Positions 28,300 to 29,057 of a stretch of DNA of 30,880 nt are shown in pieces (position 1 is the first letter of the stretch; each line of letters starts with the position of its first letter). The position numbers were made by a program, and so were the translations under genes. The DNA comes from Dicyema japonicum (taxonomy: Eukaryota > Dicyemida > Rhombozoa > Dicyemidae), in the NCBI GenBank assembly GCA_011109175.1, contig RDEW01000009.1, forward strand, positions 418,315-449,194. Direction: 5' to 3'. The notes under the pieces are model-generated. The model ran no database searches and was not told the origin of the DNA. It worked only from the letters and a program-made list of their open reading frames with translations.

Positions 28300-29057
28300 T
28301 TAATTAAAAATGAAACTAAACCTAAAATATAAAACAGTAATAAACCTAGCCAACATGTGAGGGATAGTAGAGAATATAGGACCATACCTAGAAGAATTAT
28401 CTTACAACTCAAATACAGGAGCAGTTACCAATTTATAGTTCCTGGGAACATGGAAAGTAGATTTTGAAGCAAGCTGAACTAAAAATATTTTCTTGTGCTC
28501 CTTAGGCTGAGTCATGTGAGCTGGGATATAAGGGTACTTCACTATCATCACCAACTAACACCTGAGAGGACTCAGAGTTGGGTCTCCACCAGTTGGCTAT
28601 GAAATCCTCGATCATCCATGGAATGGAGTCGTCCCCTTCCAGGGAAAATGTCTAGGCTAAGAAAAAATAGGGTCACTTTTTTTAGTATTCTATGAAGGGC
28701 TGACAGAAAGTCCTCTTGTGGTTGAACTTCTCCTCCGGGACTTAATTAAATTAACAAAGTACAGTTTGAAAAAGGACGTCCCCAACCGAAGGAGAAGAAT
28801 GTGGGGGATCTTGTGCTCATGAACGACGAGAGCACCTTCCACGGTTCTTCGCATGCCAGAAGTTGGGTATTCCTGCTTCATTCGCTGAAATCTGGACTGG
28901 ACTGAACTGTCGACCTCCAAAATGACATCTTTCTGGTTTATCGTATAATTACTCAGTTGATAGCTGGGATGAATTTACTGTGGTACAGATTAACGACTCG
29001 CTCATATGAAAAGTCATTCTGATTATTCTGAATTGATTCGCAGTCATTCACTGACAT
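28300..29057 (-). CDS. NUDT21: Cleavage factor Im 25 kDa subunit (CPSF5/NUDT21), six mini-introns
   Basis: CFIm25 binds UGUA in pre-mRNA and helps choose poly(A) sites in the nucleus. Minus-strand exons: 29057-28987, 28963-28763, 28740-28677, 28651-28562, 28536-28406, 28387-28346, 28321-28300; introns 23, 22, 25, 25, 18 and 24 nt; 206 residues (human 227; the shortfall is mostly at the N terminus). Recognisable along its length: [88 protein letters not shown] and ARFSFIFN-stop. The pseudo-Nudix helix lacks the catalytic glutamates, as in the family. Residues equivalent to human E55, R63, F103, Y208 and G209 that contact UGUA are present. The 18-nt intron is discussed under findings; unspliced it contains TAA in frame. 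Confidence 0.95.
28388..28405 (-). other. 18-nt candidate intron in NUDT21
   Basis: The minus strand reads GTAAGATAATTCTTCTAG. Flanking exons join in frame (GAG-TT|G-TAT). If kept, it would read stop-D-N-S-S-R, colinear with human YDNAPG, with TAA at the Tyr. Confidence 0.75.

Follow-up and report, generated by a model that had tools for sequence, protein, structure and literature searches.

The question raised by this locus is whether an in-frame TAA near the end of the NUDT21 gene of Dicyema japonicum is cut out of the transcript within a minute intron, or whether it is an ordinary nonsense codon, real or miscalled, in a coding exon. The gene, which encodes NUDT21/CPSF5 (CFIm25), lies in a window of 30,880 nt (the whole stretch of DNA that was analysed) on contig C181 of an assembly of 64.7 Mb in 191 contigs. 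An earlier note on this DNA had described 18 nt around the TAA as coding sequence that had apparently turned into an intron. The facts on which that note relied are right, and the intron itself is a conjecture; the reading favoured here, with a probability of roughly 0.65, is that the TAA is a nonsense allele or a miscall. The features of the gene are the following.

28300..29057, reverse strand: NUDT21/CPSF5 (CFIm25) gene, ATG at 29057-29055, terminal TAA at 28302-28300
29057-28987, 28963-28763, 28740-28677, 28651-28562, 28536-28406, 28387-28346 and 28321-28300, reverse strand: exons
28964..28986, reverse strand: intron 1, 23 nt, phase 2
28741..28762, reverse strand: intron 2, 22 nt, phase 2
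28652..28676, reverse strand: intron 3, 25 nt, phase 0
28537..28561, reverse strand: intron 4, 25 nt, phase 0
28402..28404, reverse strand: in-frame TAA, at the Tyr (13/22) or Phe (6/22) position of the covering homologues
28388..28405, reverse strand: candidate 18-nt intron GTAAGATAATTCTTCTAG, ancestral coding sequence
28388..28408, reverse strand: alternative 21-nt in-frame GT-AG segment GTTGTAAGATAATTCTTCTAG, with the same acceptor as the 18-nt candidate
28346..28387, reverse strand: exon after the candidate intron, encoding 13 residues + (R)
28322..28345, reverse strand: last intron, 24 nt, phase 2

If the 18 nt are removed, the coding sequence is 621 nt long and encodes 206 amino acids with an open frame up to the terminal TAA; if they are kept, the TAA at 28404-28402 stops the protein after 186 amino acids. 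The identification of the gene in the earlier note is borne out by the protein obtained after removal of the 18 nt, which matches the Pfam family PF13869 (NUDIX_2) with an E-value of 1.6e-62 over residues 21-201 (profile positions 2-188 of 188) and PDB chains named cleavage and polyadenylation specificity factor 5 (CPSF5) with an E-value of 4.3e-75. Spliced alignment of the homologue P0001 to the genome recovers the other five introns and treats the 18 nt as exon containing a stop, while P0004 and P0009 recover four and three introns respectively, their local alignments ending earlier; the flanks of intron 3 align weakly and were rated not reliable in one run. A CPSF6/7-type RRM partner is encoded at one locus, on contig C87 (E 4.6e-14), which contains two TAA codons if read without introns and is open in a spliced alignment with introns of 24 and 22 nt.

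In order, the introns of the gene measure 23, 22, 25, 25, 18 (the candidate) and 24 nt, so that the candidate is, as the earlier note had said, the shortest in NUDT21. Its removal restores the frame exactly, the exons on either side joining with their Tyr-Gly pair kept, which speaks for splicing; this claim of the note stands, as does its observation that the 18 nt, read as exon, are colinear with the YDNxxG motif, with D-N still there and TAA at the Tyr position. The full translation is stop-D-N-S-S-R, and the fact that the segment still reads DNSSR apart from the TAA counts against its having become an intron. The candidate has the GT and AG ends of the introns of this genome, a class which is presupposed in the intron sample described below because the aligner takes GT-AG introns only. 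The note overlooked the 21-nt in-frame alternative, which would take out seven residues, as compared to six for the 18-nt candidate. Two longer in-frame segments, of 60 and 63 nt, also remove the TAA and were rejected because the whole Tyr-Gly exon would be lost with them; skipping of that exon was rejected by inspection.

The origin of the segment can be judged from homologues and from sister copies. Of 23 protein homologues that were found, 22 extend over the site, and none of these lacks the six residues, the first being Tyr in 13, Phe in six, and Val, Leu and Met in one each. Further NUDT21 copies on C1, C101 and C129 have decayed through several frameshifts, stops or deletions, and C1 and C109 carry fragments of the gene. 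The three decayed copies have introns and exons in common with the one in the window, and the sequence of intron 2 is found in all of them. At the site the C1 copy is missing one base, and the C101 copy reads GAG TCG TAC AAC AAT TCT TCG AGG TAT GGT, so that in C101 the 18 nt are still in coding form where the window copy has TAA. Because C101 still has TAC and the homologues keep the six residues, the stretch is, on this comparison of sequences, one that belonged to the coding sequence in the ancestor shared by the copies. At the Asp codon the window copy matches 20 of the 22 homologues, and the TAA is therefore the one change that is clearly the window copy's own. The part of the earlier proposal that concerns the ancestral coding state thus stands, and the part that concerns splicing is unsupported, 18 nt lying under the 21-nt minimum of the well-supported introns measured here.

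The window copy, with its one nonsense codon, is the only intact NUDT21 found in the assembly by copy searches which scored the best candidates only, so that further copies may be missed. In all, these searches gave, besides two fragments, no fewer than three decayed copies with introns (together L002, L003, L004, L005 and L015). That the copies carry introns points to an origin by duplication at the DNA level and not by retrocopying, as far as can be judged from their structure.

One rival explanation is that the TAA is read through, or read as Tyr in the nucleus. TAA encodes Tyr in one flatworm mitochondrial code, and Tyr is the commonest homologue residue at the site (13/22). A reassignment of the code is rejected because the same gene terminates with TAA at 28302-28300, and in-frame stops number only two in 8,246 aligned codons of conserved genes, a count made with an aligner that penalised stops; readthrough or recoding is accordingly barely credible.

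The history of the window copy bears on whether the gene is dead. Parsimony on the window, C1 and C129 copies (141-143 sites each) assigns to the window lineage 5 changes at first, 2 at second and 11 at third codon positions, as compared to 26, 18 and 15 for the C129 lineage (p = 0.019 within the window lineage; p = 0.009 for window versus C129). When C101 replaces C1 the counts become 5/4/11 for the window and 24/13/14 for C129, a weaker window contrast which is given without a p value. The 5/2/11 pattern suggests that the window copy has probably spent most of its history as a functional gene; the age of the TAA is not dated thereby. The relaxed constraint of a pseudogene is thus not seen along the window lineage, and a very recent death would escape this test. 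The other mark of a pseudogene, a broken open frame, is present if the TAA at 28404-28402 is left unspliced. These signs of constraint, in the sole intact copy found and with a CPSF6-type partner present, argue for removal of the TAA and against a nonsense change or miscall.

The residues at stake are not readily dispensable, which weighs against their removal by splicing: besides being present in all 22 covering homologues, they are structured in the model of a homologue. All 20 sequences of alignment A2, which comprises 20 of the 23 homologues, have the Asn of the segment, and P0015, among the three left out, is without it. In an AlphaFold2 model of the homologue P0009 (mean pLDDT 79.8; around the site the block means are 92 and 86), these residues cover the end of the helix at 186-191 and the start of the helix at 193-201, so removal would be more than a simple loop trim and would affect a helix and turn, not a floppy loop. 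The Tyr-Gly pair is retained in the 206-residue protein that splicing would give; the pair corresponds to Tyr208-Gly209 in human numbering, the contact for UGUA. Tyr236 of the Entamoeba protein is presumably the equivalent of human Tyr208. According to an excerpt of PMC5890266, this Entamoeba residue is required for RNA binding.

Another explanation is that the TAA is real and translated as a stop, and that the shortened CFIm25 of 186 amino acids is functional. Nothing positive was found for it beyond the fact that the remainder of the gene is intact and looks constrained. Such a protein would lack Tyr-Gly and the C-terminal residues conserved in homologues, and the 20 codons downstream of the TAA are still family-like and free of defects, so that functional truncation is considered very unlikely.

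The lengths of introns in this genome count against an 18-nt intron. Reference proteins were aligned to 25 gene loci and NUDT21 (26 loci) under settings that permitted frameshifts and introns down to 15 nt, and 76 introns were called, of which 60 are well supported, with clean and well-matched flanks. The lengths of these 60 are 21 nt (one intron), 22 (11), 23 (7), 24 (12), 25 (11), 26 (6), 27 (5), 28 (3), and 29, 30, 31 and 49 (one each), and the remaining 16 calls are of 22-27 nt except for one of 102. None of the 76 calls in the 26 loci is of 20 nt or less, and the minimum among the 60 well-supported introns is 21, so the candidate stands 3 nt under the observed minimum. Six more introns in two GTPase genes measure 24-25 nt, and six well-aligned introns in a SUV39-like gene elsewhere in the window measure 22-24 nt; calls of 20 and 128 nt in a badly aligned linker of the latter gene were left out of the count. 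Zero introns that short among 72 gives a 95% upper bound of 4.1%. An 18-nt intron therefore falls outside the range of 21-31 nt (with one of 49), while the 21-nt alternative would fall inside it, and one 21-nt intron in the sample, in PP2A, starts with GTTGTA as the alternative does. If splicing occurs, the length data are easier to reconcile with an intron of 21 nt than with one of 18 nt, and the existence of an intron of this size elsewhere in the genome is a point in favour of splicing.

Shorter introns did appear in the course of the analysis. Those of 13-20 nt that were obtained from the first spliced alignments, made without frameshifts, are false, and introns of 18 and 20 nt in a PSMA6-like gene (L063, G000:C137:233300-234200) vanished when the right reference was used and frameshifts were allowed. 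L063 has four frameshifts and an unexplained nine-codon insertion which holds an 18-nt GT-AG stretch, and this stretch is the sole other possible 18-nt intron that was met. Ab initio exon-intron chaining over 19 ten-kb regions of C181 and the window gave 16 chained introns, none of which passed the flank filter.

The SUV39-like histone methyltransferase gene lies at 3025-4313 on the reverse strand and has Chromo and Pre-SET domains above the Pfam cut-off, with SET just under it at E 0.0008. The window also holds a reverse transcriptase open reading frame at 6696-7658 on the reverse strand (PF00078), likely a LINE-type element, and similar open reading frames at about 24051-25602 on the forward strand; by eye these look like a related broken copy at 24-26 kb.

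The splice signals, in contrast to the length, favour removal of the TAA. Under a profile built from the 60 introns the 18-nt candidate scores 0.47 at the donor and 5.63 at the acceptor, 6.10 in sum, and the 21-nt alternative scores 6.18. The sums lie inside the range of the known introns, 17/60 of which score below the candidate in sum; its acceptor exceeds 56/60 known ones, and its donor is by itself weak, only 2/60 being lower for either length. Under an earlier profile of 37 introns (whose bodies are 77% A+T) the 18-nt donor scored -0.04, with 2/37 lower, and the 21-nt donor scored -0.89, under all 37 (minimum -0.80), so the donor counts against splicing. It would score 0.81 if the codon were TAT and 0.56 if it were TAC, as against 0.47 now, and therefore was not created by the TAA. 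In the 60 introns as a whole, donors are barely GTAAGT-like, position +5 being T in 45% and G in 22% (profile with pseudocounts), and the exon side, (A/C)AG, holds much of the splice signal.

The frequency with which such signals surround a nonsense codon by chance must be separated from their quality. In NUDT21, 26/89 possible one-step nonsense mutations fall inside an in-frame GT-AG segment of 18-27 nt, and 2/89 do so with a donor and an acceptor each at least as good as those of the candidate (37-intron profile). In 11 other genes, which are the defect-free ones among the 26 loci, 396/1,325 nonsense positions fall inside an in-frame GT-AG segment of 18-30 nt, and 18/1,325 have a segment of 21-30 nt that scores at least 6.18. 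A summed score of at least 6.10 in the 60-intron profile is found for 43/60 known introns and for an 18-30-nt segment at 20/1,325 (1.5%) of these positions. Some in-frame GT-AG around a stop is cheap, and one of such quality is not; as a rough judgement, signals of this quality weigh some 40- to 50-fold in favour of splicing.

The reliability of the assembly itself must then be considered. Over 8,246 codons the 26 loci contain 13 frameshifts, in nine of the 26 loci, and two stops, namely the NUDT21 TAA and one in an actin copy (L044); some of the defective loci are members of multi-copy families and may be pseudogenes, and alignment artefacts may account for a few of the frameshifts, those in the divergent genes L055 and L059. 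The canonical alpha-tubulin gene (L051, G000:C115:1148400-1149950; about 90% identity) has a lone one-base frameshift which is probably an assembly error. It is the only alpha-tubulin at 89% identity or more among the candidates, all 41 of which were scored, the next alpha-like one having 55% over 82 residues. Since the sole canonical alpha-tubulin carries a frameshift, lone defects in essential genes do occur in this assembly, and they are most easily explained as base-calling errors. The earlier note had taken the intactness of the remaining gene as an argument against a defect; the gene is intact apart from the TAA, and the alpha-tubulin case makes this a weak argument. Defects of the substitution type are, however, rarer than indels (2 versus 13), which keeps the splicing reading alive.

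According to the reading favoured here, a Tyr or Phe codon of a normal coding exon would have come to read TAA by an ordinary nonsense change, which would be either an incorrect base of an assembly prone to errors or a loss-of-function allele or very recent death of the gene. The in-frame GT...AG around it would be incidental, as at about 30% of possible nonsense positions, and the TAA would, as we infer, not be removed by splicing; if real and translated as is, it would give a protein of 186 amino acids without the C-terminal Tyr-Gly and all beyond. Heterozygosity in D. japonicum is 1.24% in an excerpt of PMC6736024, which makes it conceivable that one assembled haplotype carries a null allele. 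What was counted for this reading is the length, the assembly defects, the independence of the donor from the TAA, the conservation of the lost residues and the chance occurrence of GT-AG, and what was counted against it is the good splice scores, the rarity of stops, the constraint, the CPSF6 partner and the intact remainder of the gene. Because the stretch lies under the measured introns and errors in essential genes occur in the assembly, an ordinary defect is somewhat likelier than a newborn intron.

The conversion of exon to intron, in which 18 nt (28405-28388) or 21 nt (28408-28388) would be spliced out, the TAA tolerated and Tyr-Gly kept, is accordingly held to be possible and doubtful, the presumed rarity of intronization as compared to the defects of the assembly being a further point against it; within it the 21-nt form is somewhat ahead of the 18-nt form. 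We would put forward only tentatively that a single base was changed and that an essential, apparently single-copy gene works since a minimal intron with the stop inside it, 18 or 21 nt long, is removed. Since donor and acceptor existed before the TAA, coding exons in a genome with introns of about 24 nt and loose splice sites would be full of latent introns. If the conversion is true, it suggests that nonsense changes are sometimes absorbed by splicing and that genomes with tiny introns can buffer nonsense mutations; the birth of an intron would have been caught while its coding ancestor is still readable in a sister copy, at a size no larger than that of the shortest intron measured in this genome. 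If the TAA is unspliced, as the nonsense or miscall reading has it, the case is a caution that a lone stop in an otherwise intact gene of this assembly may well reflect a defective allele or an assembly defect. The NUDT21 case is absent from the titles and abstract openings among the matches listed on intronization, on dicyemid introns, on very short introns and on NUDT21 together with dicyemids.

In comparison with the NUDT21/CPSF5/CFIm25 family, the gene is alike in its family match over the full length and in the encoded CPSF6-type partner, and unlike in that an in-frame TAA opens its YDNxxG motif and that six or seven residues would be lost if it is spliced. Dicyemids are reportedly the subject of an account of miniature spliceosomal introns by Ogino et al. 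in 2010. Excerpts give a median intron of 27 bp for Dicyema sp. (PMC6543705), a miniature size that favours conversion, and a mean intron of 38.2 bp, a genome of 67.5 Mb and a GC content of 36.7% for D. japonicum (PMC6736024); the present assembly matches dicyemids in its size, in its mean GC of 0.367 (30 rows) and in its short introns. The introns measured here resemble those of these excerpts in being GT-AG and of 21-31 nt bar one of 49, whereas the 18-nt candidate is under the minimum and the 21-nt alternative is at the edge of the range. As far as excerpts describe intronization elsewhere (PMC2740785, PMC3629103, PMC6726248, PMC9612004), the candidate shares with those cases an ancestral exon, an in-frame length, a stop inside and latent splice sites, and it differs from them in being known from genomic sequence alone and in being shorter than the well-supported introns of its own genome.
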